Below are positions 43,357-64,000 of a stretch of DNA of 64,000 nucleotides, one piece after another. The translations under genes were made by a program, and so were the position numbers. Source of the DNA: Desulfitobacterium dehalogenans ATCC 51507 (GTDB lineage Bacteria; Bacillota; Desulfitobacteriia; Desulfitobacteriales; Desulfitobacteriaceae); assembly GCF_000243155.2 (NCBI RefSeq), contig NC_018017.1, forward strand, positions 3,100,001 to 3,164,000, read 5' to 3'. How positions within the stretch are numbered: the first letter of the stretch is position 1; each line of letters starts with the position of its first letter. The notes under the pieces are model-generated. The model had not been told where the DNA came from and did no database searches. It worked only from the letters and a program-made list of their open reading frames with translations.

Positions 43357-43382
43357 AGCATCGATAATCTCGGTGCTTTTTT
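43357..43382 (+). terminator. Plus-strand terminator at the array edge
   Basis: AGCATCGA pairs with TCTCGGTGCT-type bases (AGCA/TGCT and CGA/TCG), followed by six Ts. It insulates the glycan cluster from upstream plus-strand transcription. Confidence 0.65.
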
Positions 43383-43588
43383 CATAAAAACTTCCGCAAA
43401 ATCTATTGACATCAGACACCGTTGCTCTTGACTAATGGTTGGCAACTACAAGCCCCCATAGTGGACTTTCACTACCTAGTAATCGACATTCGTGGAGCAT
43501 ACACAAGAGCTTATTTTTGCACCAGAACCCTATTCACTTAACACTGTCAATATGCATAGAATACACAAAATATAAAAGGAGAATGAAT

Positions 43589-45152: not shown

Positions 45153-45157
45153 ATAAT

Positions 45158-46153: not shown

Positions 46154-46217
46154 TAAAGGAGTAATTTGATTGCAGATGCCCCCTAGGCATCTGTCTACAT
46201 AAAAAGGAGATGAACCA

Positions 46218-47450: not shown

Positions 47451-47985
47451 CCTTAGAATCATCTGGACCAGGTTTATAAAAATGTTAACACGGGTATTTA
47501 TATATTTCTGGTGTTGTATAAAAAAGGTGATTCATATAGACGACAGCAAAGAACCATTAATGGTTAGCGTAGAACCAAAGGTCAATGCTGAACCGGAGGT
47601 CAATGCTGAACCAGAGGTCAATGCTGAACCGGAGGTCAATGCTGAACCGGAGGTCAATGCTGAACCAGAGGTTAATACTGAATTGGAAGTAGCTATAGAA
47701 TTAAATGAAAGTCCTGACGGCTACCAATATATTATGTTAGACACTCAATTCAATAACTTTCATATCTGGCGCAAAATTTTTACATGCCTTCCTAATGAAT
47801 ACGTTATTCCTAATCCTCAGTCTATCGATGTTCTTCTGCCGATGACAGCCGATTTCTACTGCAACCTGTTTCCTTCAGCGTCTAGGCATCCCAGTCTCTT
47901 GGTTGATGATCAGGTTTGGAAGCGAATCAAAGCCACTTTGCCTAAGGATTATCAACTTCCTGGTGCTATTCTCCAATTGGGATAG
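47443..47985 (+). CDS. Membrane-anchored protein with EPEVNA repeats
   Basis: A 180-residue protein with an N-terminal helix (VFIYFWCCIKKVI), a linker of five to six EPEVNA hexapeptides coded by a perfect 18-bp repeat, and a C-terminal domain of about 100 residues (YQYIMLDTQFNNFHIWRKIF). The repeat number can vary without frameshift. Translationally coupled to the glycosyltransferase, so it may be its membrane partner or a glycosylated target. No family recognised. Confidence 0.65.
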   Translation: MISLRIIWTRFIKMLTRVFIYFWCCIKKVIHIDDSKEPLMVSVEPKVNAEPEVNAEPEVNAEPEVNAEPEVNAEPEVNTELEVAIELNESPDGYQYIMLDTQFNNFHIWRKIFTCLPNEYVIPNPQSIDVLLPMTADFYCNLFPSASRHPSLLVDDQVWKRIKATLPKDYQLPGAILQLG

Positions 47986-48548
47986 TTTACAATTAAGTCC
48001 CCACAACAGATCACTTCTTAAATACATGCAATTTTGATGATAACCTTTGCCCACTATATAGATGAAAGTCCTAATGATACCAGTTCCAATGGTTGTCAAA
48101 TAGGCCCCCTTCAGCTGGAGCCGAGAATAGTCCCTTTGGCCTATGTGTATATTTTTTTCAATATCCTATTAAGTCTTTCCAAGTCATGGGTTTTAGACAA
48201 GACTCTTGTATCTTGAAGTGCTTCAAAAGCATAACTCTGAATTCCTCTTCAAAGGCTTCTGCTTCAAGGCATCTTTCGGGCCTAAAGCTGCGCTCATAAT
48301 CATGCTTAAAAACAACCCCAAAGATCCGATCCATGACCCAAAGGAAAGCCTGGAAGGTCACGGCCCAAAGACCGGAGTCCAATGGACCGAGCGAATAGCG
48401 AACCTGGAAGGGCTTCCACATGCTCACTCAAAACAACAAAAACCCTTTCAAACCCTTAAGAAAAACACTAATAAAAAGCTACACAGATACTGAAAAAAAT
48501 CAGCTCACTTTACATCAAGACAGTGGAACCTCACCATTCCCTTAAAGG
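47986..48548. other. Gap after glycan cluster with a doubtful minus-strand ORF
   Basis: About 560 bp between convergent genes. A minus-strand frame at 48,158-48,427 (89 residues, with SFRPERCLEAEAFEEEFRVM) could be a small gene or a fragment read after rep, but it has no clear ribosome site. An overlapping plus frame at 48,206-48,493 is no better. No repeat or strong terminator stands out. Confidence 0.35.
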
Positions 48549-49892
48549 TCAACCACCCCTACACCCTCCTTCCGGAAGAATATTCCCCCTCTGCATCCTT
48601 AATCTAGTACCACACCTAGGCATATCCCCACCAGAAGAAGACAAAGTACCCTTAAGGGGTGATATGGCAGTATGCCCTTTTAAAATCCCGTTCGAAAATA
48701 GAGTTTCCGCGCCGGCAGCGGCCGGAAGTTCTGCAGAAGACATCGAATTTAAATATCCCTCAGAGAGATTGTAGAAACTCTGGGCGTACTTCCCCCTTGA
48801 AGTATAAGCCTCGATAACACCCTCATTGCGAAGTTGTGCCAACGCCTCCTTAAGCGTTCTATAAGCCACACCAAGCCGTTCAGCCCAGGCTTTTTGAGTT
48901 TCCCGTACTATCTTATTTATCCAAAGATCCTGGATAATATCTTCCTTAACTTCCGATATATGATCCCTTCTTCTGTCCCTGGGTTTAGCCCACTTATACC
49001 AGCCCTTTATCTGTGCAGAAAGGCCGGTTATGGACGAAAGGACACGAGGGGAGGCGTGATGCCGTCCAGTAATTACCGACCGATAAATCTTCTCAATCTC
49101 GGCCATGGCCAACGGTTCTTTAAGACCTTTATTCCATTCATGCAGCTTAGTATGTATCTCCGGAACAGGAATCCCAGCATCCCACAAACAAAGGCCAAGG
49201 CCATAAGCCCAGCGATTCCTTTCCCCATTTTCCGCGACCGGCTCCTGGATGCGCCTCCCGGCCGGAGTGGCCAGAAGTGAACCGATATAAACAACCTTCT
49301 GCGCTTTAACTTTTACCGTCTTGATTGGCTTCTGGACATCATACCAATCACATAACTCATCCCAGGATGTTCTACTATACCAATCACAGTACACACTATT
49401 TTCCACTGTCGGCCGACGAACCCAACGCTCCACACCAACAGCACACGGATCGGCCCCCAATGCCACAACCATCATTTCATGAATTTTAGACACCTTAGCC
49501 AAAAGAATATCATGACGGATGCGTAACGGCTGATCAAGAATATTCCACGCCTGATAATGTCCAGGAGTAGCCGTTGCAACTATCAGCTCCGGAATAGGAA
49601 GACGAGCCGCACGATAACAATCCAGGATGTCATCTGGAGTAGTCCCTTGAGGCGTATCAAAATCACAGACAAAAGCTAAAACATGCCGAACATAACGACG
49701 TTGCCGGCGACGGGCAAAAAAAGTTGAAGCAGTAATATAAGTATAATCTTTACCAAGATCAGGTAAGGTCCAGAGAATACGAGCATCAGATTTTATATTT
49801 GAGCCAAAAACCAGACCATTATCTTTCTTCATTTGATTCGTTTTATATGGGCTGGTTTCAGGCAACACGTCGCAAAAGATATCAGAAAGCAT
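48549..49892 (-). CDS. AEP primase-type replication initiator
   Basis: A 447-residue replication protein. The archaeo-eukaryotic primase core has the D-x-D motif FVCDFDTPQG (about residue 75), the histidine motif ATPGHYQAWN, and the RWVRRPTVENS segment. A PriCT-like helical domain follows (RWAYGLGLCLWDAGIPVPEI), then a winged HTH (WAERLGVAYRTLKEALAQLR). Such proteins initiate plasmid or ICE replication. GAAAGG is eight bases ahead of the ATG but lies immediately behind the T-run of a terminator (see the leader feature). Confidence 0.8.
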   Translation of the reverse strand: MLSDIFCDVLPETSPYKTNQMKKDNGLVFGSNIKSDARILWTLPDLGKDYTYITASTFFARRRQRRYVRHVLAFVCDFDTPQGTTPDDILDCYRAARLPIPELIVATATPGHYQAWNILDQPLRIRHDILLAKVSKIHEMMVVALGADPCAVGVERWVRRPTVENSVYCDWYSRTSWDELCDWYDVQKPIKTVKVKAQKVVYIGSLLATPAGRRIQEPVAENGERNRWAYGLGLCLWDAGIPVPEIHTKLHEWNKGLKEPLAMAEIEKIYRSVITGRHHASPRVLSSITGLSAQIKGWYKWAKPRDRRRDHISEVKEDIIQDLWINKIVRETQKAWAERLGVAYRTLKEALAQLRNEGVIEAYTSRGKYAQSFYNLSEGYLNSMSSAELPAAAGAETLFSNGILKGHTAISPLKGTLSSSGGDMPRCGTRLRMQRGNILPEGGCRGG

Positions 49893-49906
49893 TGAACCAA
49901 CCTTTC

Positions 49907-49940
49907 AAAAAAGAACTCAAGCCAAAACAAGCTTGAGTTC
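49907..49940 (-). promoter_or_regulatory. Terminator hairpin in the rep leader (attenuator candidate)
   Basis: On the minus strand, GAACTCAAGC pairs perfectly with GCTTGAGTTC around eight bases, followed by six Ts. The GAAAGG ribosome site for rep starts on the very next base, so there is no room for a promoter after it. Any rep mRNA must read through this terminator, as in attenuated rep genes of some Gram-positive plasmids. A likely minus-strand promoter (TTGATT-N16-CATAAT) lies at 49,995-49,968. Confidence 0.7.
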
Positions 49941-49971
49941 TCTCTGCGCTATTTATTTTGATGGATTATTA

Positions 49972-50039
49972 TGGTATAATGAGATGTAAAATCAATTTAT
50001 CCACTTAAATTCTTCCCGGTCAAAAAGCCGGGAATTTTT
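49972..50039 (+). ncRNA. Candidate short plus-strand RNA upstream of rep
   Basis: An extended -10 TGGTATAAT (49,972-49,980) faces right, with a weak -35. It is followed about 33 bases later by a terminator (TTCCCGG/CCGGGAA at 50,013-50,034, then TTTTT). This would give an RNA of about 55 nt. It is antisense to any readthrough mRNA from the transfer operon into rep but not to mRNA from the proximal rep promoter. Confidence 0.4.
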
Positions 50040-50043
50040 CTAT

Positions 50044-50202
50044 TTATACATGATCTTTCTCAACCCTAAGCCAAACAATCATTACAAAGGACATAAGAGC
50101 TGCTAAATCCACGCAGTGTAACCATACAGTAATCGTTAAGATAATATAGATCAAGCTTCCAATAAAAAAAGCCGATGGCCTACTCGTTAGGAACAATAGC
50201 AT
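50044..50202 (-). CDS. Small membrane protein at the end of the transfer operon
   Basis: A 52-residue protein starting MLLFLTSRPSAFFIGSLIYI with two hydrophobic segments and ending VEKDHV. The ATG at 50,202 lies 23 bp inside the preceding small gene. GAGGAAAAG is a plausible ribosome site. No family recognised. Confidence 0.55.
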   Translation of the reverse strand: MLLFLTSRPSAFFIGSLIYIILTITVWLHCVDLAALMSFVMIVWLRVEKDHV

Positions 50203-50356
50203 CACTTTGCTTTTCCTCTTGTAATGTAAAATCCGGCTTGATATTAACAGACATCGGTTCGTGCTTATCCTGAATAAGTAAAATAATTGAGATGACCAGG
50301 ATAAAAGAATATATAAATAATTCAATAATCGTCTTACGACTAACATTGCGGCTCAT
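50180..50356 (-). CDS. Small single-helix membrane protein of the transfer operon
   Basis: A 58-residue protein: MSRNVSRKTIIELFIYSFIL continuing into one membrane helix, then a hydrophilic tail (EEKQSDAIVPNE). Its ATG overlaps the M23 stop as ATGA. Too short for most gene finders but well placed for translation coupling. Confidence 0.65.
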   Translation of the reverse strand: MSRNVSRKTIIELFIYSFILVISIILLIQDKHEPMSVNIKPDFTLQEEKQSDAIVPNE

Positions 50357-51081
50357 GATTCCCCTCCTTCCTCTGCGGCTGGTGGTGGCGGTGGATAAAG
50401 GTATGGGATAGGGTCAGTATGACTCCACGCAAACTTATTGGTTCTAATCTCAAAATGCAAGTGGTGACCCGTACTAGAACCAGGGTTAGGATCATTCTCC
50501 GGATCTCCCCCCTCAAGCGCGATAACATCACCTGTAAATATCTCTTGATCAGGCAGAGCAATAACCTTCGATAAGTGAGCATAGAAAGAGTAAAACGTTT
50601 CATCCGGGTAATCGTGTTTGATGAGCAGATAATTCCCGTAAATCTTATCTATACCAACCTTGACCACTTGTCCATCCGCAATACTTGTAATCTCGCTATG
50701 CCATTCCGGAGCAATATCAATCCCAGAATGAAAACCAAATTTCCCCGTAACAGGATGAATGCGCGAACCATAAGGCGAAGTAATCACACCATTTGAGGGC
50801 ATTGGGTATTTGCCATTCAAAATGATCATGCCCGTCTGCAGACGAATCTTATCGCCATGTTCAGCCCGAAAACTTTGCAGAGCAGCCATCTCTTTGGGAT
50901 TAGAAAAGAAGCCCGCTAAAAACGATAGCGGGCTTGCTAAAATATAAGCAAACATCATTAAAAGTAGAAGAACCAGGGCTATAGGTATTGAAAAAAGAAG
51001 GATAAGCTTCCTTCTCCCCTCTTCGCTGGTCGCCATTGTGGCCAAGTGAAGAAGAGCTTTTGTCGCGACGGGGCCGGCCAT
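50353..51081 (-). CDS. M23 peptidase of the T4SS (VirB1/TcpG-like role)
   Basis: A 242-residue protein with one membrane helix (about 26-55) and an extracellular LytM domain: HSGIDIAPEW (H-x-x-x-D), YAHLSKV and HHLHFEIRT (H-x-H). Active residues are intact. It would cut the wall for the mating channel. A Pro/Glu-rich tail follows. Lies 15 bp after the virB4 stop. Confidence 0.9.
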   Translation of the reverse strand: MAGPVATKALLHLATMATSEEGRRKLILLFSIPIALVLLLLMMFAYILASPLSFLAGFFSNPKEMAALQSFRAEHGDKIRLQTGMIILNGKYPMPSNGVITSPYGSRIHPVTGKFGFHSGIDIAPEWHSEITSIADGQVVKVGIDKIYGNYLLIKHDYPDETFYSFYAHLSKVIALPDQEIFTGDVIALEGGDPENDPNPGSSTGHHLHFEIRTNKFAWSHTDPIPYLYPPPPPAAEEGGES

Positions 51082-51096
51082 GGACGCTCACCTCAC

Positions 51097-52932
51097 TTAC
51101 CTTCCACCAGCTGTACCCATGTAATCAAATTTATATTCAGGAATTTCCTCGTTAAAATTTGCCTTCATCCTTTTTGACCCTATCATCAGAAGCGCCTGGC
51201 CGCGCTGCTTGCTGGCCAGCAGCTCCTCTTCGGCATCAGTAAGGCCGTATAAATCCTTCGTATCTTTCAAGTTCGGCCCATCCGTCCCCATAAGAATCTT
51301 GAAGCACGGCGTATCGAGAATCGCTTGACCATACATTTTCACTTTTGGATCGAGAAAATCTACAACACTATGCGAAGCAACTACAACCGCCGCCTCGTAC
51401 TTTCGGGCCCTCTTCTCTTGATTTCGCACGACCACCAATGATTGGGGAACATTCGGGTCAACGATTAAATACCCTTCATCGTAAATTACCATAACCGGCT
51501 GCGTTCTATCTTCGCTCATTTTTTCCCACGCCCAATTGAGGATGTTAAAATATTGGGTCCGCTTGATACGCTCACTGGAGTTTTGTAAGTTATAAGTATC
51601 GAGGCAAACACATTGATTGTCGGATTGAATCGTGGTGTGTCCATTCCAGAGGAAGGAATCGCTGCCCATTGCAATATCTTTTAAGAGCAGAGCCAATTTG
51701 GCATAAGGATTTTGTTCCAAGTCCTTCTTTATCGCTTTCCCTTTTTTATCAATAAGTTCATACAGATCTTTCATAACTGGAAAATCCGTATTGCTTAGAA
51801 GATCTATATCCGTGTCCCAAAAGATATTGAACGCATTGTATAACTCAATTAGACAATCCTTCAGGATAGCTTTCTGGATATCGGTCAAAGAGGGACTATA
51901 AAGACCGAAAAAGATCTCCAAATTTTGCATATACAAAGCCATGTCTCCCATACCATGACCTTCATCTTTATATAGCTTCTCCACTTCGTCGTTTTCGTCT
52001 CTTGCTACCGGCCGTATTTGCAGTGGATTAATTCTCCCCCCTGCTCCACCACCAGCATCGATCCAATCTCCATTCAGCCTTAAACAAAGATCTTTATATT
52101 CTCTCTCAGGATCTACAAAGATAATTTTTGTCCCTCGCATGTACTCACAAAGAGCAAGATGCTTGATGATCGTAGATTTCCCCACTCCAGGGACCCCCAT
52201 GATCACCACATTAGAATTCGTCCTGTCCCCTCCGCGCAACCAGGGATCAATGATAATAAGCCCTCCCGCCGCATCTTTGGCGAAGTAATAGCCTCTCCCA
52301 TCGTTATAACCAGACGAAGCAAAAGGAAACCCACCCACAAAACTTGAAAGGGGCACCGGACGCTGAGTGATGTTTTCCACCTTACTATCTGTCGTATAGA
52401 AAGGAGAAATCATCTTGAAGCCTTCTTTTTGTAGATCAGCTAATGTTCGCACCTTGCATTTAAGCCCTTTGATTGTACTTTCTACCTTCCGACAAACCTT
52501 AGTAAACATAGCGTCGTCTCGAGCAATAGGCATAACCACAACACTCATTAACCCAACAGATTCTTCATTCTGATCAATCTGAGCCATGGTCTTTTCAGCA
52601 TTATCTGCAGTTCTTGTCGCTCTCTGCTTTGTTAGAGGATCGTTCGTTGTATCCGCTGTACCACGATTAAGTTTAATTGTATTTGACAGCGTGTCCACGA
52701 AGGCACCATTGTCTGTTGGCGTGAATGTAATTGATACAATAGTGCTTGGTATATTCGTTATTTTAGATAACCAACCATAGTCCGGATCTTGTGGATACTG
52801 AATAATCCCGTAAATCTTGCCTTTATTCTCACCTATCGTCAAGTTATTTCGAGTAAATCTGAGCCCTATCGGAGTGATAACATTGAGTAAGGCACTATTG
52901 ACCGGCATTTCTTCTGTCCTTTTTTTTGCCAT
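51097..52932 (-). CDS. VirB4/TraE-type T4SS ATPase
   Basis: A 611-residue motor ATPase. Walker A is GVPGVGKSTIIKHL (about 245-258), Walker B is VMVIYDEGYLIVD, with sensor VVVASHSVVDFLD. The region PFASSGYNDGRGYYFAKDAAGG before Walker A is typical of Firmicutes VirB4. Central power unit of the mating channel. Confidence 0.93.
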   Translation of the reverse strand: MAKKRTEEMPVNSALLNVITPIGLRFTRNNLTIGENKGKIYGIIQYPQDPDYGWLSKITNIPSTIVSITFTPTDNGAFVDTLSNTIKLNRGTADTTNDPLTKQRATRTADNAEKTMAQIDQNEESVGLMSVVVMPIARDDAMFTKVCRKVESTIKGLKCKVRTLADLQKEGFKMISPFYTTDSKVENITQRPVPLSSFVGGFPFASSGYNDGRGYYFAKDAAGGLIIIDPWLRGGDRTNSNVVIMGVPGVGKSTIIKHLALCEYMRGTKIIFVDPEREYKDLCLRLNGDWIDAGGGAGGRINPLQIRPVARDENDEVEKLYKDEGHGMGDMALYMQNLEIFFGLYSPSLTDIQKAILKDCLIELYNAFNIFWDTDIDLLSNTDFPVMKDLYELIDKKGKAIKKDLEQNPYAKLALLLKDIAMGSDSFLWNGHTTIQSDNQCVCLDTYNLQNSSERIKRTQYFNILNWAWEKMSEDRTQPVMVIYDEGYLIVDPNVPQSLVVVRNQEKRARKYEAAVVVASHSVVDFLDPKVKMYGQAILDTPCFKILMGTDGPNLKDTKDLYGLTDAEEELLASKQRGQALLMIGSKRMKANFNEEIPEYKFDYMGTAGGR

Positions 52933-52972
52933 AGCAGTCTCTTCTCCTCCCTATATAAAAACAATAAAAACA

Positions 52973-53671
52973 TCAAGAAGAAAGATTTTCTCCCTGATCC
53001 CGGAGTATCGGAAAAGTAGTATCATAGCTCATATCCTCAAGGTGAGCATAAGCCGGATTATTAATCAGGTTGCATAATCGCACAATTTCCTTCTCTTTTA
53101 AGATTTCTACGGGGACTTTAGAGTTTTCAAAACATCCTGCAATATCTTGCATACGACGAAAAATACTTCGTTCCGATCCTTCTTCAAATCGCTCCCATAT
53201 CATCAAATAAAACTGACGCTCAATCACTTCTCCGGATAAAGCATAGTTAGATAGCACTGAAATCTCCTTGCGTAATATTTCTTTTTGCTTTTGATTCGTC
53301 GTTGATATTAAACGCTCCGTGTACTCATTGATCAATGGACTGATATCGACCGGCCGCGATGCGGCGATAAATTTAAATGTTTGTTGATCTCCGGAAAGAT
53401 CAGCCGTGAGCTGCCGGGTCAATAACGCCTTTTCTCTTTTGCTAAAAAGATCAATACTAAAATGCTCCATCTTAAGCGCCATAAAAATGTATCCATCCCG
53501 TGCATAAAGATATTTCACAAGAATATCTTTGACATTCGTGAATTTTTGAGCAGTGACTTGGTCTTGAGTTTCAGCCTTAGCTTGTTTCTTCTGTTTGTTT
53601 ATAAAAAAGAAAACCCCTGCTGCTAAGAGCACGGTTATAAACAAGACAGATATTGAAATAATAGGATTCAT
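52973..53671 (-). CDS. Conserved T4SS-operon protein, possibly VirB4 accessory
   Basis: A 232-residue protein with one N-terminal helix (ISVLFITVLLAAGVFFFIN). The body, RDGYIFMALKMEHFSIDLFS, resembles the N-terminal part of VirB4/TraC-like proteins. It lies between the VirB3-like and VirB4 genes, so it probably assembles with VirB4. The exact role is unknown. Confidence 0.6.
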   Translation of the reverse strand: MNPIISISVLFITVLLAAGVFFFINKQKKQAKAETQDQVTAQKFTNVKDILVKYLYARDGYIFMALKMEHFSIDLFSKREKALLTRQLTADLSGDQQTFKFIAASRPVDISPLINEYTERLISTTNQKQKEILRKEISVLSNYALSGEVIERQFYLMIWERFEEGSERSIFRRMQDIAGCFENSKVPVEILKEKEIVRLCNLINNPAYAHLEDMSYDTTFPILRDQGENLSS

Positions 53672-53690
53672 CTAATTATCACCCTCTTCA

Positions 53691-54023
53691 TCATTTGAAT
53701 TTCCACTCATTCAGCGCCACATAGGGATATTCTTTTTGTGATTTTGCGAAATGCAGCATATTCTTCACCTGATCAATTGCCGATAGATTTGTCCTATCTT
53801 TGATCGTCATCATCACGCTCCCTGCACCAATCACCATCATGGATACGATACTTACCGAAACATTCCACGTTACCAGCAAAAATATGATATCCATCACTCC
53901 CCCTACCAGGCAGATAAGGCCAGCCTGTCTCAGCTCATCTTTCCCAAAACCATCAAAGAATTCAGGCTTACTTTTAATCCCAACAGGGATATAGAGTGTA
54001 TTACCACTATTTTCCTTTTCCAT
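53691..54023 (-). CDS. VirB3/PrgI-like inner-membrane protein
   Basis: A 110-residue protein with PVGIKSKPEFFDGFGKDELR followed by two adjacent membrane helices and a hydrophilic C-terminus, the PrgI/VirB3 layout. It docks VirB4 to the membrane. Confidence 0.85.
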   Translation of the reverse strand: MEKENSGNTLYIPVGIKSKPEFFDGFGKDELRQAGLICLVGGVMDIIFLLVTWNVSVSIVSMMVIGAGSVMMTIKDRTNLSAIDQVKNMLHFAKSQKEYPYVALNEWKFK

Positions 54024-54034
54024 GTGAGCACCTC

Positions 54035-54241
54035 CTATTTAAAGTAGAAAAAGACAATATCTCGAAATTGCCAAACTGACTCTGCCATGATATAAAAAAG
54101 GACCGCATTGAAAGCTCTTTTTTTGTACATAGAAGCCTCTTCTGCATTGCCGATCATACGAATAAGACAAAAGACAATCCTCAAAGCCACTCCGGCTCGG
54201 ATAAGGATTATAACAGCCACTGCCAGGTCATCAATCTCCAA
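54035..54241 (-). CDS. Small T4SS membrane protein
   Basis: A 68-residue protein starting MEIDDLAVAVIILIRAGVAL with two helices separated by an acidic/basic loop (GNAEEASMYKKR). Similar small proteins are often found between VirB6 and VirB3 genes in Firmicutes ICEs. Possibly a second pilin-like or scaffold subunit. Confidence 0.7.
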   Translation of the reverse strand: MEIDDLAVAVIILIRAGVALRIVFCLIRMIGNAEEASMYKKRAFNAVLFYIMAESVWQFRDIVFFYFK

Positions 54242-54257
54242 ATTTAGTGCCCCCTCC

Positions 54258-55079
54258 TTATCTCTTGAAAATTCGTACTAACTGTGTAGCATAAAAAGCC
54301 TTGCCCATCACATTTCCCCCCGGCCCCGCGGGAATAATGAACTCTTGTAAAAATCTTGGTGTACCTAGAGCCATCTGGATAGCTACTATAGCCCATATGA
54401 GATGCCCTTTCATGAATAGAGCCAAACTGAGCTTAAGAAAAACTATCTGGAGCATCACCGTAATCATAGCTTGAAAGAATTTCTGCATGTATGTTTTGAA
54501 CACGCCTTGGTCGGAATCGACTAATCCCACACAGGCTATAGGAACACCTAGTCTCAGCGTTAATATTTCTAACCCTATTTTCAAGAACTTGATATAAAAA
54601 TAAAGGAGGCTGCCTAAGTAAAACAGACCAAAAATAGCTGTCAGAAGCCCTGCCGACATAATGGATTCCACTACCAGTTTGAAATCGACAAGAAGACCCC
54701 GAGTTAAGGCGGCTAAAAGCTTATCTGTCAGACCTTGTACAATCGTAGCCATCCAGTGATACAATGTTGGAAAAGAAATCGCTACCACTAACGCTTTAAG
54801 AAAATAGGTAAGAAATACAATCGGATCAGTATCTGCGTCACCATCAATCCATAAAATATACGTGTTAAATCCCTTTTGCACAAACTTCAGAATGATGAGA
54901 GATATCCCAAACATGAATAGAATTTCATAGATTTCCGACAGCAAATTGAAACCTAGGATTTCATTTAAAGCATTTTCTGCATAGAAAGCGATTGGTACTA
55001 GATTCATTAGTAATAAATCCATATAATTTAAAAGGCCTGTTAATAAAGCCTCAATCAAAACCATTAAAAGATCAACCAA
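54258..55079 (-). CDS. TrbL/VirB6-like polytopic protein
   Basis: A 273-residue protein with about six helices and a conserved loop GVPIACVGLVDSDQGVFKTY, matching the TrbL/VirB6 family of Firmicutes conjugation systems. It would form the inner-membrane part of the channel. Confidence 0.85.
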   Translation of the reverse strand: MVDLLMVLIEALLTGLLNYMDLLLMNLVPIAFYAENALNEILGFNLLSEIYEILFMFGISLIILKFVQKGFNTYILWIDGDADTDPIVFLTYFLKALVVAISFPTLYHWMATIVQGLTDKLLAALTRGLLVDFKLVVESIMSAGLLTAIFGLFYLGSLLYFYIKFLKIGLEILTLRLGVPIACVGLVDSDQGVFKTYMQKFFQAMITVMLQIVFLKLSLALFMKGHLIWAIVAIQMALGTPRFLQEFIIPAGPGGNVMGKAFYATQLVRIFKR

Positions 55080-55158
55080 AGCATTCCCTCCCTCCCTTAG
55101 GCTTATAAGGAGAATTCCTTATAAGCCTAAGAAATTGAATCTCAAGAATCCAAACGGT

Positions 55159-55491
55159 TTAAACATAATAAGATGTAACGACGTTAATGATAACACTTAC
55201 AAGCTCCACGCCGACAACAGATACCAGCGCCACAAAAACACGTTTATTCCACTGCTTCTGGTCCATTTCGTCTGCAGCGCTACGCCGAATCAAAAAGTAT
55301 GCTATTACCAGTGCACCAATTATCGGGGCAGCGATCATGAGCGCTGTCGTACCATCGTTTAACATCTTAATCGTGCCGGTAAAAATTTTGCTCTCCTGGA
55401 TTGTCTCAGCAAAAACCATATCCGGAACCAACAAAAAAACAGCCATTAGAATGGCTGCTAACAATAACGACTTTCTATATTCTTTTATCAT
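55159..55491 (-). CDS. VirB2-like pilin/TrbC-type subunit
   Basis: A 110-residue protein: signal peptide (LLLAAILMAVFLLVPDMVFA), then two hydrophobic segments separated by a basic loop (RRSAADEMDQKQWNKR). This is the VirB2 pilin layout. The ATG at 55,491 is nine bases behind AGGTGG. Confidence 0.75.
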   Translation of the reverse strand: MIKEYRKSLLLAAILMAVFLLVPDMVFAETIQESKIFTGTIKMLNDGTTALMIAAPIIGALVIAYFLIRRSAADEMDQKQWNKRVFVALVSVVGVELVSVIINVVTSYYV

Positions 55492-55513
55492 CTTACATAT
55501 CCACCTCTCAAAA

Positions 55514-57037
55514 TCATTTCTCATTGAGAAATTCTTTCATTTCTTGTGCAACAGAAGGAGCACATAAATATTGGTATTGCTTCCAAATGCCCCAAAGTTC
55601 AATGTCATTCATTTTCGTAATACGCTGTGGCCTTAGATTTTCACGCCTTTCTCTTAATAACCTGTTATGCTCTTTGTCCCCCATGCCAAACATTTTATTG
55701 AAAATAGTCTGTGATATGTCCGGAGCAAACATAATGGCCGGATAGCCACGGGATGTAACCAAACTGTACGGACGATTTATCCGCCTAACTTCGTCCGGAG
55801 TCAATAGAGGTCGGCTCATCAAACTCATACTTTCCGATGTAGAGGGAGATGAGTAACGCCCACTAGAAGAACTGATTGAGTACGAAGATACCGTGTACGG
55901 TCCAAGTTTTTCTGATATTTCTTTAAGGGTTTCAGGATTATCTGCCTGAAGATAGATCCATTTTTCGCAGTTGTCCCGTAGAATTTTTGCGACTTCTTTG
56001 CCATATTTCTCGTCAAGCTGAGCAAAAGATTGTACAAACAAAGAATACCGGATTCCACGTCCCCCACCGGCTGTAAGTGAACTATCTAAAGCCGGCATTT
56101 TGACGAAGTTCCCGAATTCTTCAAGAATAAAGTTGACCCGCCTTTCCAGCCTCCCTCCTCTTGCATCCGCAGTCCTTACCAATTCCTCATAGATTTGTGA
56201 AGCCATCAAACTAGCCAAGGAATAATAGGTTTTCTTTTCATCCGGAAGGATGATAAATACTGCGGTTTTTTTACGCCCTATTTCGGCCGGATCAAAATCC
56301 TGTCCAGAGGTCAAAGAATAAATCATAGGGTTAGTAAAAAGTTTAAGTGTCGCCAAAGCAGCCGTATAGAAACTTCCACGAGTTCTTGTAGGAGCTACTT
56401 CAGAAATTGCTAACAACCCTTTTGAAGGATGATTATCCGGCAATCTCTTAACATACTCAACGATTGGCATCTTGCTGTTGATTGTTTTACACATTTCAGC
56501 GATAAAATAATAGACATTCGTCATGTTTCGGTATTTATGCCGTTCCGGATCGCGGTTGTCATAGACTACCGCCATAATTGCGCTAGCAATCGTTGAGGCT
56601 TCCCCATCATTCCAGATGCGCTCTCCTTTCGCTTCACCAACAAGATTGGCTGTCATATCCCATGTTGCATCAATCGCTGCAGCAAGATCATCATTATCTA
56701 CCCCATCACAAATCCTCTTCAAAAAACTATAATGATGACTCTTAAGAGGATTCTTAAAGTCTACCGCATAAACTTCATACCCCAGACTTCGTAAATACGG
56801 AGCTGTATAGCTATAGAGTTCACCTTTGGGATCACTTAAGATCATACTTTCACCGGATAGCCCTATAAACCCAATAGATATCAAGATAACTGTGCGTGAT
56901 TTGCCTGATCTCGTAGCACCAATACAGAGAGTGTGGATATCTTCTTTAACATAAGTGATAGACAGTGTGTTTCCCTTCCTCTGTACACTGAGGACAATTC
57001 CACCTTCGGAAATATTAAGTGCTAAAGCTGTGCTCAA
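55514..57037 (-). CDS. VirD4/TraG coupling protein, ATPase part
   Basis: A 507-residue cytoplasmic motor that feeds DNA into the channel. Walker A is IGATRSGKSRTVI (near residue 39), followed by MILSDPKGELY; Walker B is NFILEEFGNF, and the sensor is SLFVQSFAQLDEKYG. It lacks the N-terminal membrane helices normally fused to this family; these are coded by the preceding gene (ATGA overlap). Confidence 0.93.
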   Translation of the reverse strand: MSTALALNISEGGIVLSVQRKGNTLSITYVKEDIHTLCIGATRSGKSRTVILISIGFIGLSGESMILSDPKGELYSYTAPYLRSLGYEVYAVDFKNPLKSHHYSFLKRICDGVDNDDLAAAIDATWDMTANLVGEAKGERIWNDGEASTIASAIMAVVYDNRDPERHKYRNMTNVYYFIAEMCKTINSKMPIVEYVKRLPDNHPSKGLLAISEVAPTRTRGSFYTAALATLKLFTNPMIYSLTSGQDFDPAEIGRKKTAVFIILPDEKKTYYSLASLMASQIYEELVRTADARGGRLERRVNFILEEFGNFVKMPALDSSLTAGGGRGIRYSLFVQSFAQLDEKYGKEVAKILRDNCEKWIYLQADNPETLKEISEKLGPYTVSSYSISSSSGRYSSPSTSESMSLMSRPLLTPDEVRRINRPYSLVTSRGYPAIMFAPDISQTIFNKMFGMGDKEHNRLLRERRENLRPQRITKMNDIELWGIWKQYQYLCAPSVAQEMKEFLNEK

Positions 57038-57480
57038 ATGATTTTATCCTCCTTTCCTCTCTTAATAAGCTCACTAATAATGGGGTCTTTCAGCGGTATG
57101 GATGCTACTCCAAACGTTTCCGTTTTTTCCTTTTCCGTCATCCACCGGGCAGAACCATGTTGTTTTTGTCCTGCAGCCACAGGCGTTTCTATTGCTGGTG
57201 TTACCTGCATCATACGGCTCTGGTACGGTTTATTGGTACTGACAATTAGGAATACCGCAAAAAGCAAAATAAACCCTTCGAAGCATAAAAAAAGCATCAG
57301 ATGAGATTTCACCGATGCTATGCTTTCTATGCAACTCATAAACGATGGGAAACCAGAATCCATGAACCGCAAAGACTTCGTTTTCAAAAGCAAATGCAGT
57401 AACGTCGATAAATAGACACTGATTCCAGTCTGCAAAACGGTGGCTATTCCTGCTACCAACAATCTTCGCTTAATGCTCAA
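57034..57480 (-). CDS. N-terminal membrane part of a split VirD4 coupling protein
   Basis: A 148-residue protein with two membrane helices (about 5-27 and 55-80) and the motif KQHGSARWMTEKEKTETF, which in one-piece VirD4/TraG proteins comes just before the ATPase domain. TTG start at 57,480, seven bases behind AGGAGG. The coupling protein is therefore made as two coupled polypeptides. Confidence 0.75.
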   Translation of the reverse strand: MSIKRRLLVAGIATVLQTGISVYLSTLLHLLLKTKSLRFMDSGFPSFMSCIESIASVKSHLMLFLCFEGFILLFAVFLIVSTNKPYQSRMMQVTPAIETPVAAGQKQHGSARWMTEKEKTETFGVASIPLKDPIISELIKRGKEDKII

Positions 57481-57496
57481 GAAAGCACCTCCTTCA

Positions 57497-58153
57497 CTAT
57501 AATTCCAATTCTTCAAGTTCTCTCGTCTGCACCCGAGGTACAAGAATGAAACTTATTTTATTGAGGACATTTCCAATATCTTTTAACTCTTCAAACGTTA
57601 CTTGAGGAGGAGAAATTGTAATAAGTCGGGTTAAGCCTGAGCGAATCACTTTTAGTTCTGATTCATTGAATAGCTTTTCATGATCGATTAGCCTAGCCCT
57701 CAATGCAAAATCCTCACAAGCCTTTGAATAGTCACTAAATCTTTTATCCAAGACGTAATAGTTAAGCGTTAATGAACGATATCCTGTAGCAAATTGATAC
57801 CCCTCCCCAGGGGTTAATCTCGCCGCTAAAACTTGATCATTATAAGCCAAGAGTTTTCTGTACCCCCTCAATTGCTTACCGGAATTACTGCTTTTTATAG
57901 GTGGCGACATTTTATACATAAGTACATACTCCGCTGTCTCTTCAGCAATTATCTTGACAGCTTTACTACTCCAATCACCCTTCAGATCGTTATTATTATC
58001 AATCTGACAAACCAGGGCATCTTCCCAATAAATATTTGCGTAAGTATAGTTATCATTAATAATCCTGATATCGTAACCTACACATCTGAGCCGTCGAAAC
58101 AATTCTTCGTACCATGTTTGAGTAAAGTCGGTGACAATTTTATCATAGTTCAC
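57497..58153 (-). CDS. Unknown protein of the transfer operon
   Basis: A 218-residue soluble protein beginning MNYDKIVTDFTQTWYEELFR with an alpha/beta N-terminus and helical C-terminus. No signal peptide or membrane helix. No family recognised. Position next to the coupling protein suggests a substrate-processing or adaptor role. Confidence 0.55.
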   Translation of the reverse strand: MNYDKIVTDFTQTWYEELFRRLRCVGYDIRIINDNYTYANIYWEDALVCQIDNNNDLKGDWSSKAVKIIAEETAEYVLMYKMSPPIKSSNSGKQLRGYRKLLAYNDQVLAARLTPGEGYQFATGYRSLTLNYYVLDKRFSDYSKACEDFALRARLIDHEKLFNESELKVIRSGLTRLITISPPQVTFEELKDIGNVLNKISFILVPRVQTRELEELEL

Positions 58154-58197
58154 GCATTAACTCCCTCCTTCTTCCTTTCATTAACTACTCAATACAA

Positions 58198-58857
58198 TTA
58201 TTTAGGGCTTGTCATATCCCCTTCCTGTGAAATCGGATCATCCCCTGAAGGAGTTTTTATTTCGGGCTCAATAACAGGCAAACTTAAAGCATTACTTAGG
58301 CTTTCAATAATCTTGTTTTGTTCAGTTATTATGTGAGTACCCTCATTGTCTGTAAAAACAAAAGACGGGCTTTGCTGAACAAATTCTGTTGGAGGTCCGA
58401 CTTGAACGGTCATAGGCAGGGATATATTATTTTCCTGCTGGAATCCTTTAGCCATTTCTTTTGCCTCATTTTGGTCTGTAGTTTTAGCAAATGTACTAAC
58501 CAATACCAAAGGTTTATGAGGAGTGCTTCCCATCTGATTTATCACATTTTGTATTTCTATAATTACTTGAGCTGAGGACTCATCCCAAGTCGCAAAGAAA
58601 AGAGCTGGTATCGCTTCCGTGTCGATATAAACTCTTGCTGCTTTATCTGCTGCGGCATCCAAAACAGGTACTAGACGATAATTTGCATCAGCAATAACAC
58701 CTTGCGCCGGTACATCTTTTAAGTTGAACTCCTGCTGTGAACCTTCTTTTCCTTTGCCTTGAACGAGCGTCATAGCAGCTAAAGCTATAACGAAGACTAC
58801 AAGCACTCCGAGAATAACGAGTTTACCTTGCCGAGTTAAATTAAACTTTTTTTCCAT
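58198..58857 (-). CDS. Membrane-anchored thioredoxin-like protein without cysteines
   Basis: A 219-residue protein with one N-terminal helix (LVILGVLVVFVIALAAMTLV) and an extracytoplasmic domain shaped like TlpA/thioredoxins: ALFFATWDESSAQVIIEIQN replaces the usual FFATWCPPC. Both catalytic cysteines are absent (D and S at those places), so it cannot do redox chemistry. It may be a structural or peptide-binding subunit, in a VirB8-like position. Confidence 0.6.
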   Translation of the reverse strand: MEKKFNLTRQGKLVILGVLVVFVIALAAMTLVQGKGKEGSQQEFNLKDVPAQGVIADANYRLVPVLDAAADKAARVYIDTEAIPALFFATWDESSAQVIIEIQNVINQMGSTPHKPLVLVSTFAKTTDQNEAKEMAKGFQQENNISLPMTVQVGPPTEFVQQSPSFVFTDNEGTHIITEQNKIIESLSNALSLPVIEPEIKTPSGDDPISQEGDMTSPK

Positions 58858-58871
58858 GATTATTAACCTCC

Positions 58872-59846
58872 TTAATTATTACCTACGGGATTATAAATTG
58901 GTGGATTGTATGTTCCAGATGTCCCTGGTCCTGTACTAGGTGGCTGAATAGGAATTGTATTTGAATCCGGATTAGGTTGTCTTTGTGGCGGGGATTGAAT
59001 GTTTTCCGGGTTCATGGTTGAAGGATCTAAATCAGTTTGCTCAGTATTCGTATTTGGTGGAGTTTGTATTACCTGATTTGCCTGAGGTTCGACCACAGCA
59101 GGAGGGACCATTGTGTTTGGAGGGCTTTGTATACTGCCTAAATGTGTTTTCGGTGTTGCAAACGGATCAAACATAAGGGATACTTTGCCGGTAGCAAGCT
59201 GACTAAATGCTCCCGCGCTTTCCTCAGGGATTGCCAGTTGAACCGCAACAGGCACACTAGCATTAACGCTGCCACTTGTGTTATTGAGATTCGGTTGTAT
59301 GGGCTGCCCCGCATTGTTAATTACCGAAACAACTCTAACCCCTTTGAGTGAGTTAACCATTTCAGATTGGATTACCTGCCCCCAATTAGATCCATTTCTA
59401 TCCGGGGTCAAATAGACACTTACGATATCGCCTGGTTTAACAAGACCAGATGTCGTTAGGGAAACCGGGACCCATACGCCAACTTCGCCGGGATAGAGGC
59501 CGTTTCGCATAGGTGTCTCTGCAACAAGCCCTTTAACAATTGGCTGTCCAGCTTTAACTGGATATGATAGTGATTGTCCTACCACCTCATCCTTTGAAAC
59601 GATAACATCTGCTGGAAGTATTCCGGACACTTTTCCATCATCTTTAAGATCTGCTGCGGTGATTACTTTTCCTGGTTCAAGATCGTTGGCCGCAACAACC
59701 ATACTTGTGACGTCTCCCATGGCTAAACGTCCTCCGAACGTTGCCAGGGCAAAGGTGCTTATACCGACTAACAGAGATAGAGTTAAAGCTCTTGACCTAG
59801 CTTTGCGTGTAGAAGAGATTCGAGGGAGTGAAAATGGAAGTTTCAT
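58872..59846 (-). CDS. SAF-domain (CpaB/RcpC-like) pilus-assembly protein
   Basis: A 324-residue protein with one N-terminal helix (LTLSLLVGISTFALATFGGR), a SAF domain (VVAANDLEPGKVITAADLKD), an RcpC-like beta domain (PGDIVSVYLTPDRN), and a long Pro/Asn/Gln-rich tail. CpaB/RcpC proteins belong to Flp-type pili. Start at 59,846 behind GAAAGGTGA. First gene of the transfer operon. Confidence 0.8.
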   Translation of the reverse strand: MKLPFSLPRISSTRKARSRALTLSLLVGISTFALATFGGRLAMGDVTSMVVAANDLEPGKVITAADLKDDGKVSGILPADVIVSKDEVVGQSLSYPVKAGQPIVKGLVAETPMRNGLYPGEVGVWVPVSLTTSGLVKPGDIVSVYLTPDRNGSNWGQVIQSEMVNSLKGVRVVSVINNAGQPIQPNLNNTSGSVNASVPVAVQLAIPEESAGAFSQLATGKVSLMFDPFATPKTHLGSIQSPPNTMVPPAVVEPQANQVIQTPPNTNTEQTDLDPSTMNPENIQSPPQRQPNPDSNTIPIQPPSTGPGTSGTYNPPIYNPVGNN

Positions 59847-59984
59847 AAATGAGTCACCTTTCTTTCCTTTCTTTGTTCTAAATTCATAAATTAAGAGGAC
59901 AAACAAATTCTTATCAAAGAATCGCCTGTCCTCTTAAAAACACAGCAGTTTATTGCTTATGTATACCTTGGAAGTTTTATGTGA

Positions 59985-60914
59985 TCATATTTCTTCATCT
60001 CCTTTATTTTGTCCAGCGCGCTTTTGCCTCCAGCGCGCCATTTTTCGTACGGCCTTTGCTAGTTCATATTGATTGGACATTACATATCGAGCTGTTGTGG
60101 CTATATTTGGCATACCATTCTTCTTCAGGTGACCAGCAACTATGGCCACATCAGTGATTTTCATGCCACTGTTTAATAAATCAGCACAATATGTATGTCT
60201 CAAAGTATGATAGGTAAAATAAAATCCTAATTTGTCTCTGAGGTTTTCGACCATCTTTTGCACGGCACGAGTAGACATTTTATGATCAGTATTTTGAGCC
60301 AAAAAAACATATCCATCTTTGTCCGTTCTACCGTGAAGGTATTCCTGCAAGAGCTCCACCAAATCAGGAGCCATCGGAACAGTTCTATATTTAAACCCTT
60401 TTCCTACTCTTACACGAATCTCACCACCTCTCTTTTTTAGCTTTAAATCTGAAATCCTTAAGTTAGTAACTTCTGATACACGTAATCCGGCACCAAGTCC
60501 AATTTCAATCAACACACGTTTTTTAAGGCTTTCAGACTTCATCGCATCTCTAAGCACATCCACATAGTCTTCAGGTAAACTTTTGGGTGCCAACAAAGGT
60601 TCTTCAATGTACTGAACCCGTAACGCTGTATTGGTTTTGATAGCGCCTTCTTCCACCCCCCACCTAGAGTAAATTCTAATCACCTGAAGAGCTTTATTTA
60701 TCGTGGCAGGTTCTTTTTTTGAAATGATTGCCAAGTACGTTCGATAATCGCGAATAAGTCCTGCTGTAATGGTTTCGGGTCCGGTAAAATCAATTTCCCT
60801 TTCTTCTTCCACCCATTTGATAAATTGCTTAATTGTTCGTAAGTATGCAAGTATCGTTTTTACGTCATAACCTTGCCTTTCATCCATCCATCTCTCAAAT
60901 GTGTCTAGATCCAT
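59985..60914 (-). CDS. Tyrosine recombinase next to the cassette array
   Basis: A 309-residue integrase. SAM-like N-terminal domain, then the catalytic domain with GAGLRVSEVTNLRISDL (Arg), YHTLRHTYCADLL (H-x-x-R), AIVAGHLKK (His) and the nucleophile in TTARYVMSN. ATG at 60,914, nine bases behind AGAGGG. It could be the ICE integrase, the cassette recombinase, or both. Its nearest DNA neighbour is the first 23-bp cassette site, about 105 bp from the start codon. Confidence 0.9.
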   Translation of the reverse strand: MDLDTFERWMDERQGYDVKTILAYLRTIKQFIKWVEEEREIDFTGPETITAGLIRDYRTYLAIISKKEPATINKALQVIRIYSRWGVEEGAIKTNTALRVQYIEEPLLAPKSLPEDYVDVLRDAMKSESLKKRVLIEIGLGAGLRVSEVTNLRISDLKLKKRGGEIRVRVGKGFKYRTVPMAPDLVELLQEYLHGRTDKDGYVFLAQNTDHKMSTRAVQKMVENLRDKLGFYFTYHTLRHTYCADLLNSGMKITDVAIVAGHLKKNGMPNIATTARYVMSNQYELAKAVRKMARWRQKRAGQNKGDEEI

Positions 60915-61018
60915 TCTGCTTTTCCCTCTTTCTTCAAATCGTGTCCTTTCAGGCAATAAGCATATTTAACCACAAATTATCCTGTTTTGGACCTGAATTG
61001 AGAAAAGAGATCTTATTC

Positions 61019-61041
61019 CGATTCGTACGCGAACCCTATTT
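61019..61041. repeat. Cassette recombination site, copy 1
   Basis: A 23-bp sequence with core GATTCGTACGCGAACCC. TTCG and CGAA form inverted arms around TACG. It is identical in all three copies. It lies in an open reading frame that reads DSYANPI. Confidence 0.8.
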
Positions 61042-62303
61042 TGGGTGCTACGATTACCGTCTCTGGAGGCTTTGGAGCATCAGTAAGTGGGGCCACAAAT
61101 GAGAACGGTTACTTCAATTTTGAGGTAACTCCAACCATCGTAGGCGGACCATACACGCTCCATTATTCTGTAACCAGCTCCTCAGGGACTTACACCGTTA
61201 GCCAAAATACACTGACTGTTACCCTTGTTCCAGTACAACATGTCCTGGAAGGTGTAACGATCTTGGGTAAAACCGGAACCATGCCTAATATGGCAATTCG
61301 TAATCCAAATGGTGTAGGAACCGGGAGAAGCCAAGCATTGGAGTATTGGACCGGCGGAGGCTCCACGGTCTTTCTCAAACCGCAGAAAGGGTTCTATGAT
61401 GGAGATGACACATGGACTTACTATAATGATTCGAACTTAAACTCCGGTAATATTAGAGCAGGGACAAGCATCTTTGGAGTAAATGGTAACCCTAATGTTG
61501 TTAACACATCCGGGGGAAATCTAGTGCCGGGAGGCATATTATCAGGCTATAAAGGGTATTCAAATGGATCTCTAGTTACAGGCACTATTCCTTCGAAGAG
61601 TGCAGCGACGATTACTCCATCGAGCGTTAATCAAACAATAACGGCAGGTCAATATCTTTCTGGAACACAGACGATACAGGGAGATCCAGATTTAATTTCG
61701 AGCAATATTCGAGCAGGGGTTAACATCTTTGGAGTTAATGGAGATACAAATGTCGTTAATACATCTACAGGAAATTTAGTGCCGGGAGCTATGCTATCCG
61801 GTTATAAAGGATTTTCAAATGGATATCTAGTTACAGGCACAATTCCTTCAAAGAGTGCAGCAACGATTACCCCATCAACAGTTAACCAAACGATAGCTTC
61901 AGGTCAATATCTTTCTGGAACACAAACAATACTGGGAGATCCGAACTTGATCCCGTCAAACATAATAAGTGGGAAGAGCATATTTGGGGTTGTGGGGACA
62001 GCAAAAACTAACACTGGGGTGAAGTATGCAAGTGGTAGTAAAATGTCAGAATTGGATAATGGCTATCAGCGATTAAATATTTCCGGCCTAAGTTTCCGAC
62101 CATCTTTTGTGTTAGTACAAGTTAATAACTATGGATATCTATTGGGCATGTCCAACTATACTATATATCATGGTCCATATAACACAGGTTACTCTAATAC
62201 TGGAGTATCAACGGGTTATTCTGCGACATCAGACGGCTTTTCCATCATAGTTAGTCCTGGGATATCTTCACCTCAAACTTGTAGTTGGCGAGCTTGGGAG
62301 TAA
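61019..62303 (+). CDS. Cassette 1: start-less tail-fibre/adhesin C-terminal ORF
   Basis: From the site to the stop there are about 428 open codons in frame, with a TGA just upstream (about 61,000) and no ATG/ribosome site. The N-terminal 160 residues (Ig-like ITVSGGFGASVSG, then GGSTVFLKPQKGFYDG) are shared with cassettes 2 and 3. Then two repeats of about 87 residues (LSGYKGYSNG, TIPSKSAATITPS, LSGTQTI, IFGVNG) resemble Firmicutes phage tail-fibre domains. The C-terminal domain ends SPQTCSWRAWE. It can be expressed only if joined to a head gene. Confidence 0.8.
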
Positions 62304-62326
62304 TTTTATTCATTAAATTTCAGATT

Positions 62327-62360
62327 AAGAAAATGGGGGAATCTTCCCCATTTTCTTTAC
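62327..62360 (+). terminator. Terminator at the end of cassette 1
   Basis: GAAAATGGGG pairs with CCCCATTTTC, followed by TTTACC. Each module thus carries its own 3' end. Confidence 0.7.
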
Positions 62361-62366
62361 CTATTT

Positions 62367-62389
62367 CGATTCGTACGCGAACCCTATTT
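62367..62389. repeat. Cassette recombination site, copy 2
   Basis: Identical to copy 1 over 23 bp (core GATTCGTACGCGAACCC), direct orientation, 1,348 bp downstream. Open in frame from 62,329. Confidence 0.8.
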
Positions 62390-63432
62390 CAGGGGCTAAT
62401 TTGACCGTCTCTGGAGGGTTTGGAGTTAGCGTATCGAGAACCACAAATACCAATGGATACTTCAATTTTGGGATTACTCCTAGTGTTATTGGGGGGCCGT
62501 ATACGCTCCATTATTCAGTAACCAGTTCCTCCGGGAATTACGCTGTTAGTCATAATACCTTAACTGTTACGGCTCCCCTTGTTATACCTACAGATAAGAT
62601 TCTCGAAGGCGTTTCAATAGCAGGTCAAATCGGCACAATGCCAAATATGGCCACAGCTAATCCCAATGGCATAGGAGTAGGCCGAAGCCTTGCTAAGGAA
62701 TACTGGACAGGCGGTGGGTCTACGGTTTTTCTAAAGCCACAAAGGGGCTATTTTGATGGAGCCGATACATGGACATACGTCAATGCCCCCAATCTATTAC
62801 CGTCAAATATAAAACAAGGAGTTAATTTATTTGGTGTAACGGGTACCTACTTGGGAACCGTACCTACACATGGATCAAAAGAATGGACTACTCCAGGAAC
62901 CTATTCATTTACCGTCCCTGAAGGCGTGAATTCGATTTTTGCGCTAATTCAAGCAGGTGGTGGTGGCGGTGGTGGTAATACCCCCGGTCAGGTCGGAGGA
63001 GGAGGCGGCGGTGGTGGTGGTTATGGTGTTTTTTCAATACCTGTAACGCCAGGCCAGATTTTACCTATTGTTGTAGGATCAGGGGGATTAGGCGGCACTA
63101 TAAATTATTATGATGGTAGTAAATGGACTGGTGCCACAGCAGGACAAGACGGGGGAAACTCATCAGTGGGTTCCTACAGCTGCACGGGTGGTAAAGGGGG
63201 ATCTCCTGGCGGTAGTTATCCATACGGAGGTCTTGGTGGTATCGGAAATTCTTATGGTAGGAACGGCACACCAGGGACACAAGGCGAATATTATTCGCCA
63301 TCTAATGGGTTAGGCGGTGCTGGTGGAATGAATAATTATGGAACCGGAGGAATGGGATCTGGTACATATTCGACAAAGGAAAATGGTGACGGTAATGATG
63401 GCAGCTGCGGAAGAGTTGTGGTGTTTTGGTGA
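62367..63432 (+). CDS. Cassette 2: start-less ORF with glycine-rich adhesin tip
   Basis: About 355 open codons from the site; an upstream in-frame TAA lies at 62,326. The shared Ig-like region (LTVSGGFGVSVSRTT; YWTGGGSTVFLKPQ) is followed by a different C-terminus: KEWTTPGTYSFTVPEGVNSI and a glycine-rich lattice (GGGGGGGYGVFSIPV) ending CGRVVVFW. This is the style of phage tail-fibre tips and glycine-rich adhesins. No start codon or ribosome site. Confidence 0.8.
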
Positions 63433-63506
63433 AGTAGTTTTGGCTCAATCCCATCCTTGAATGGGGTGTTAAATGACCAAAAATAACGACAATGCGTTAC
63501 CCATTT

Positions 63507-63529
63507 CGATTCGTACGCGAACCCTATTT
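63507..63529. repeat. Cassette recombination site, copy 3
   Basis: Identical 23 bp, direct orientation, 1,140 bp after copy 2. Confidence 0.8.
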
Positions 63530-64000
63530 TAGGGGCTGCAATTACGGTTTCTGGGGGCTTCGGAGCCAACCATTCAGGGATTACCAATGCCAATGGCTAC
63601 TTTAATTTTTTGATTACTCCAACCGTTATTGGAGGGCCCTATACACTTCAGTATTCGGTAAATAGCCCCCAAGGAAACTACTCTACAAACCAAAATTCCT
63701 TAATCGTTACAGCCCCACTTATTATCCCAGTCGATAAGATCCTGCAGGGCGTTACTATAGCCGGTCGAGTCGGGACCATGCCCAACATGGCAACATCTAA
63801 TCCAAATGGCATAGGAGTAGGCCGAAGCCAGGCGAAAGAATACTGGACAGGTGGAGGCTCTACGCTCTTTCTAAAGCCGCAAAGGGGCTATTTTGATGGC
63901 GTTGACACCTGGACTTATTGGAATGAGCCTAATCTGTTACCATCAAATATTAAAAGTGGTACAAGTATCTTTGGAGTCGAGGGAAATATGCCTCCTGGAA
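63507..64000 (+). CDS. Cassette 3: start-less ORF, cut by window edge
   Basis: Open from the site to the window end (164 codons): DSYANPILGAAITVSGGFG, NYSTNQNSLIVTAP, KILQGVTIAGRVGTMPNMAT and YWTGGGSTLFLKPQRGYFDG. The variable tip has just begun (IFGVEGNMPPG). The array continues beyond the window. Confidence 0.75.

Follow-up and report, generated by a model that had tools for sequence, protein, structure and literature searches.

A probable shufflon in a Tad-type pilus operon on a conjugative-type island of Desulfitobacterium dehalogenans

The array, its operon and its island

The stretch of DNA analysed here (the window, 64,000 nucleotides) corresponds to chromosome positions 3100001-3164000 of Desulfitobacterium dehalogenans, a soil anaerobe, in a genome that consists of one contig of 4,321,753 bp (G000). 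Its right edge cuts through an array of gene ends that lies inside a Tad-type operon and a conjugative-type island. The features of the window that concern this array are the following.

35153..64000 (no strand): left part of a 78-kb island in comM, which continues outside the window to genome position 3213232
51097..52932 (-): VirB4-like ATPase of the conjugation module (PF12846/PF19044)
54258..55079 (-): TrbL conjugal transfer protein (PF19597, E=1e-91)
55514..57037 (-): VirD4/TraG coupling protein (PF02534, E=5e-58)
58872..59906 (-): cpaB-like Tad gene adjoining the recombinase (TIGR03177, E=4e-13, below cut-off); it directly follows the head gene in the array-free genome G033
59985..60956 (-): XerC/D-like tyrosine recombinase, the proposed shufflon invertase, reading away from the array (PF00589, E=1.5e-28; XerC-like solved structures)
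61019..61041 (+): recombination site copy 1 (outer terminal), an exact 23-bp match whose left flank, TCTTATTCC, is also found at the outer site of genome G016
61020..62303 (+): silent cassette A, 427 aa, with two internal 255-bp repeats and a tip related to phage tail fibre
62304..62367 (+): tail of cassette A with a terminator-like hairpin (fold z=-3.3; terminator scan 12336-12349 of L008)
62367..62389 (+): recombination site copy 2
62368..63432 (+): silent cassette B, 354 aa, with a glycine-rich tip (PF21722, E=1.5e-6; phrog_863 tail fibre assembly, E=2.5e-13)
63507..63529 (+): recombination site copy 3
63508..64000 (+): silent cassette C, 276 aa, which crosses the window end to genome position 3164338

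The comM gene is intact in two relatives (G002 and G003), and its halves match the host at window position ~35,153 and genome position 3213233, so 78 kb have been inserted in this gene. At the right end of the island, the ORF of a large serine recombinase (L083:7613-9706) continues in frame into the 3′ half of comM; the 5′ half is joined to an HTH domain. Island genes encode a MOBP-type relaxase (PF03432), NikA/MobC, the coupling protein, TrbL, the VirB4-like ATPase and ParAB, and the combination of relaxase, coupling protein, VirB4, integrase and defined insertion site indicates that the island is, by anatomy, an ICE. It also carries a ~277-bp unit repeated four times in tandem, the copies being mostly 99% identical and containing terminator-like hairpins (window 42162-43293), and a NACHT/STAND-type NTPase that is possibly a defence gene (L009:17911-19938); seven 18-bp repeats at window 47554-47715 code for a Glu-Pro-Glu-Val-Asn-Ala repeat.

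Seven copies of a 22-bp site, GATTCGTAYGCGAACCCYATTT, occur at chromosome positions 3161020-3168966, four of them facing right (3161020, 3162368, 3163508 and 3164389) and three facing left (3167204, 3168085 and 3168966). The three exact copies within the window, all on the + strand at 61020, 62368 and 63508, have the spacings of 1,348 and 1,140 bp that the initial annotation had described. The number of copies expected in shuffled sequence was 0.00, even with three mismatches tolerated, and a whole-genome scan with the 18-bp core and at most one mismatch returned seven matches, which are the array copies alone, against 0 for the reversed-pattern control. Along the chromosome, the leftward recombinase gene is followed by cassettes A, B, C and D, each behind a right-facing site, by E, C1 and C2, each reading leftward from its site, and by the leftward head gene. 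Every site opens a cassette frame that is closed by the cassette's own stop, after 427 (A), 354 (B), 276 (C, C1 and C2), 369 (D) or 533 (E) residues.

The silent cassettes have the features of gene ends. The three modules of the window read DSYANPI in frame through the site and onward to their own stops, and an in-frame stop, initially claimed for the first two, was found a few codons upstream of all three, as it was directly upstream of each silent cassette. Start codons with a Shine-Dalgarno match of 5/6 are absent from the first 200 codons of A, B, C and E, in agreement with the reported lack of start and ribosome sites in the modules, and cassette D has a single internal TTG with such a match at +327. 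A reading of each module as an independent gene was ruled out by the missing start and ribosome sites and by the upstream stops. The cassettes have ~160-165 residues in common, close to the ~160 first estimated, and then diverge. For tips A, B and D, searches gave matches to phage tail-fibre families or glycine-rich tail domains; those with tips E and C matched nothing named. The tip of C recurs in the left-facing C1 and C2 (785 bp identical after position 96), C2 being the expressed copy, and the AlphaFold model of the expressed cassette is poor (mean pLDDT 42). Cassettes D and E are convergent and share a strong hairpin between them (z=-4.5). The tail of A and that of C (z=-4.3) fold far better than shuffles, and that of B does not (z=-1.3); counts of promoters and terminators across the array showed no excess over shuffles.

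The initial annotation predicted that a full-length gene with DSYANPI at the site would lie to the right of position 64,000. This gene is the head gene (L009:4136-7075, - strand, 979 aa), which contains the rightmost site in frame (GAT TCG TAC GCG AAC CCT ATT, at residue 704) and whose ATG has a 5/6 Shine-Dalgarno match, so that the head alone has a ribosome site at its start. No module proved to have its own start further upstream. The earlier idea of a store of silent C-termini rather than independent genes is thus supported, but not that of a purely direct array, because three of the seven sites are inverted. A bidirectional array with a tyrosine recombinase at its edge makes shufflon-type inversion a likelier mechanism than an unspecified store.

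The head protein consists of an N-terminal hydrophobic segment (membrane anchor), Big_1 Ig domains (PF02369) and a CarboxypepD_reg-like domain (residues 698-754), inside which the site falls. Its hydrophobic N-terminal segment and its position fit a TadE/TadG-type pseudopilin, although it gave no TadE/TadG Pfam match. The head gene is flanked on the right by tadC-, tadB-, tadA- and cpaE-like genes and the gene of a prepilin peptidase; on the left, past the array, is the cpaB-like gene. One locus thus contains counterparts of the TadA ATPase, TadB/C, CpaB, CpaE and prepilin peptidase, the set that marks a Tad pilus locus. The TadA-family, CpaB and CpaE profile matches are below cut-off, Peptidase_A24 is above it and T2SSF is weak; because most of the Tad matches fall below curated cut-offs, "Tad-type" is the safe wording.

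A DNA site and conserved silent frames

Since the site is translated, its conservation might reflect only a conserved peptide. Codon usage argues otherwise. Among residues that never change across the five distinct cassettes, codons are identical in 58 of 70 pairwise comparisons in the site (83%) and in 233 of 620 (38%) elsewhere in the shared region, a difference that none of 20,000 permutations reached. In addition, where the heads carry the related motif in their other Ig domains, the codons differ (GAT AGC TAT GGG AAT CCA and similar), and 14 sites from four genomes keep GATTC.TAYGCGAACCC. The high codon identity in the site and the different codons in other Ig domains together indicate a DNA site, not merely a conserved peptide. 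The TAC/TAT and CCT/CCC variants of the site are linked with the downstream cassette and not with the upstream tail, which suggests that exchange would occur at or to the left of site position 8.

The silent cassettes are under purifying selection. In the shared region, dN between cassettes is 0.19-0.30, and dN/dS is 0.07-0.16 in the seven of ten cassette pairs for which dS could be computed, dS being saturated in the other three; such low ratios show that the silent cassettes are maintained as functional protein. A pseudogene array was ruled out by the open frames and the low dN/dS.

Recombinase, related genomes and mosaic copies

The tyrosine recombinase is encoded at the end of the array opposite the head. 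Alignment places the catalytic R, H, R, H and Y positions in the protein, which stops shortly after the catalytic domain and has no counterpart of the C-terminal extension of Rci, to which it is 23% identical over 224 aa. In Rci, that extension has been linked to inversion-only behaviour (PMC11852207). A scan of the named genomes with the recombinase protein gave no match.

Among the related genomes, G016, from the genus that contains the Desulfosporosinus assemblies SRJS8 and I2, has a second complete and independent array, in which a recombinase 74% identical to that of D. dehalogenans occupies the same place. Its layout is recombinase, array and head, with an outer and an inner site on the + strand and the head site on the - strand; it adjoins cpaB and is near FtsK/TraG-type ATPase genes. 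At a second Tad-type locus of G016 (L043:8246), the head gene has one perfect site and no adjacent array or recombinase; this solitary site is perhaps acted on in trans, or perhaps a deletion remnant. In Desulfosporosinus sp. SRJS8 (G026), the head site is followed by one inverted silent cassette and a contig break, the contig ending, just past the cassette (L044:8438-8575), in a ~55-bp repeat common to other contig ends. A search for the recombinase in this genome gave nothing better than a fragment interrupted by two stops, located on the same contig, and we read the locus as a damaged array. The head of Desulfosporosinus sp. I2 (G029) has a single site. Finally, G033 encodes a 60% identical head in the same operon, with cpaB directly next to it and the motif DAYGNPI, and beside this head no site, array or related recombinase was found. 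Comparison of these four genomes indicates that site, array and recombinase come and go together. The site scan of named genomes returned only Desulfosporosinus sp. SRJS8 and I2, and the viral contigs scanned contained no copy of the site.

The recombinase might instead be the integrase or a resolvase of the island, and a mere neighbour of inert duplicated gene ends. The distant homologues of the recombinase, which are plasmid Xer-like enzymes, have no array or pilus genes among their listed neighbours, as this explanation would predict. However, the comM junction itself is occupied by a large serine recombinase; this ruled out the tyrosine enzyme as the island integrase and leaves it free for the array. 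Moreover, the tyrosine enzyme is encoded inside the Tad-type operon, at a position shared by two genera, and the operon of G033 does not contain it; inert gene ends do not account for silent cassettes with open frames and low dN/dS. We consider this explanation very improbable.

Two of the array copies are mosaic. C1 and C2 (L009:3149-4966, genome 3167149-3168966) are in tandem at the head and identical over 881 bp. They are chimeras of B (the first ~100 nt) and C, differing from C only within the first 96 nt and equalling B up to nt 102, a structure that site-specific inversion does not explain. The chimera suggested a crossover point at nt ~97-102, which was set aside, as conservation is limited to the 22-bp site. 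In G016, cassettes b and c share an identical stretch of 353 bp that starts 11 bp upstream of the site and ends at +341. Therefore, either homologous exchange, gene conversion or unequal recombination also shapes these arrays, or assembly has mixed their repeats.

These mosaics, in which C1 and C2 follow B for 100 nt and then C for 785 nt, along with the 353 identical bp of the G016 pair, are what could be expected if the silent store were used through RecA-dependent gene conversion in the style of pilS/pilE or vlsE, the 22-bp identity then being a by-product of protein conservation or repeated conversion. Yet the tips lack the 3′-end homology needed for a second crossover, and the codons of the site are far more conserved than those of other invariant residues. 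Nor would conversion predict that the motif is differently encoded in other Ig domains, that the array-free G033 lacks the site, or that both complete arrays come with a dedicated recombinase that disappears when they do. As the main use of the store, gene conversion therefore seems unlikely.

A movement of cassettes like that in integrons, with excision as circles and reinsertion at sites in place of inversion, would account for the presence of C three times as an exact site-to-site unit, including two identical tandem copies at the head, and for a change in copy number that inversion alone does not explain. However, excision and insertion in direct orientation could not express most silent cassettes, which point away from the head (A-D here, the two of G016 and the one of G026). 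In addition, the cassettes are gene fragments joined in frame, and the recombinase scores 78 bits against the integron-integrase model, far below the cut-off of 265, and so is not of the IntI type. This explanation seems to us slightly less probable still than gene conversion. Because most silent cassettes face the wrong way for excision, inversion is the economical reading.

Proposed inversion and comparison with known systems

We propose, with a probability of roughly 0.84, that the locus is a shufflon in a Tad-type operon on a Gram-positive ICE. It combines an N-terminal gene fused in frame at the site, start-less ORFs in both directions and an adjacent recombinase; from these features we infer inversion as the route of recombination and the tyrosine recombinase as its agent. 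The constant head, with its N-terminal membrane segment and Ig-like domains, is fused in frame, at the site within an Ig-like domain, to one of 5-6 distinct C-terminal segments, and the six further sites each open a silent cassette with its own stop; most of the cassette tails contain hairpins. If the head site recombined with an oppositely oriented site, the DNA between them would be inverted and the tip swapped, a reaction very probably carried out by the adjacent XerC/D-like enzyme. In simulated inversions, 1440 arrangements were reachable, A, B, C and D coming to the head in one inversion and E in two. The main text of a study that mapped inversions from reads in D. dehalogenans names another locus only (PMC5903667).

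The PilV tips of R64 and TP114 select mating partners (PMC9045228), a precedent that makes a role in partner or surface recognition likely here. As the locus sits in a conjugative-type island, the varied tip is likely to act as a surface-recognition adhesin, probably one for mating partners. On a more speculative and tentative level, the ICE may use its Tad-type pilus as a mating adhesin, with a shufflon of Rci-independent origin changing partner specificity, an Xer-like enzyme allowing both inversion and cassette duplication, and new tips gained from phage tail-fibre genes.

Closest in organization is the pilV shufflon with Rci of R64, ColIb-P9 and TP114 (IncI1, IncI2). There, too, a constant head is fused in frame to exchangeable C-termini, silent tips lie in both directions between short asymmetric sites, the order is recombinase (-), array and head (-) (rci/shufflon/pilV) with a tyrosine recombinase at the far end of the array, and the whole resides on a conjugative element with a MOBP relaxase, a NikA-like protein and a type IV-family pilus locus. 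In contrast, the R64-type pilus is a type IVb thin pilus whose head is the minor pilin PilV, and here the operon is Tad-type and the head is built of Big_1 Ig domains. Rci has a C-terminal extension of ~70-90 aa that the recombinase here is without; the R64 sfx site, GTGCCAATCCGGTNNNTGG, is unlike the site here, which does not have the 7-bp core and 12-bp right arm of sfx-type sites (GTGCCAATCCGG); and the present array has a Gram-positive host and mostly one cassette per site-to-site unit.

The Rin shufflon of bifidobacterial prophages (PMC6109161) likewise has a XerD-like tyrosine recombinase without extra domains in a Gram-positive setting, a constant/variable fusion and variable segments that each begin with a short asymmetric repeat. 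Its variable tips are tail receptor-binding ends (PMC6109161), and here three tips (A, B and D) have matches in phage tail fibre families. However, Rin acts on a phage tail protein at an 11-bp site, TTCCCTAACCC, and has no conjugation genes, whereas here the target is a pilus-operon protein and the array is surrounded by Tad and conjugation genes instead of a prophage. How deletion is avoided without the Rci extension is a question raised for Rin too (PMC6109161). The Min (p15B), Cin and Gin tail-fibre systems also pick a C-terminal tip by single or multiple inversion, but with serine recombinases, at different sites and in a phage or prophage context. XerC, XerD and XerA belong to the same protein family as the present recombinase, for which multi-site inversion is proposed in place of a dif/dimer-resolution context.

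In the literature searched, in which coverage of subscription papers is thin and priority is not proven, we found no report of a shufflon in a Tad-type or Gram-positive pilus locus. The system would extend phase variation by tip switching to Tad-type loci and offers a test of whether Tad-type pili serve in conjugation. Because its site is unrelated and its recombinase lacks the special domain of Rci, it also provides a natural test of what makes an invertase favour inversion over deletion. It works like a shufflon and stands outside the Rci family; the arrangement of a conjugative element carrying a pilus-locus protein whose tips are shuffled has apparently arisen independently in proteobacterial IncI plasmids and in a Gram-positive ICE.
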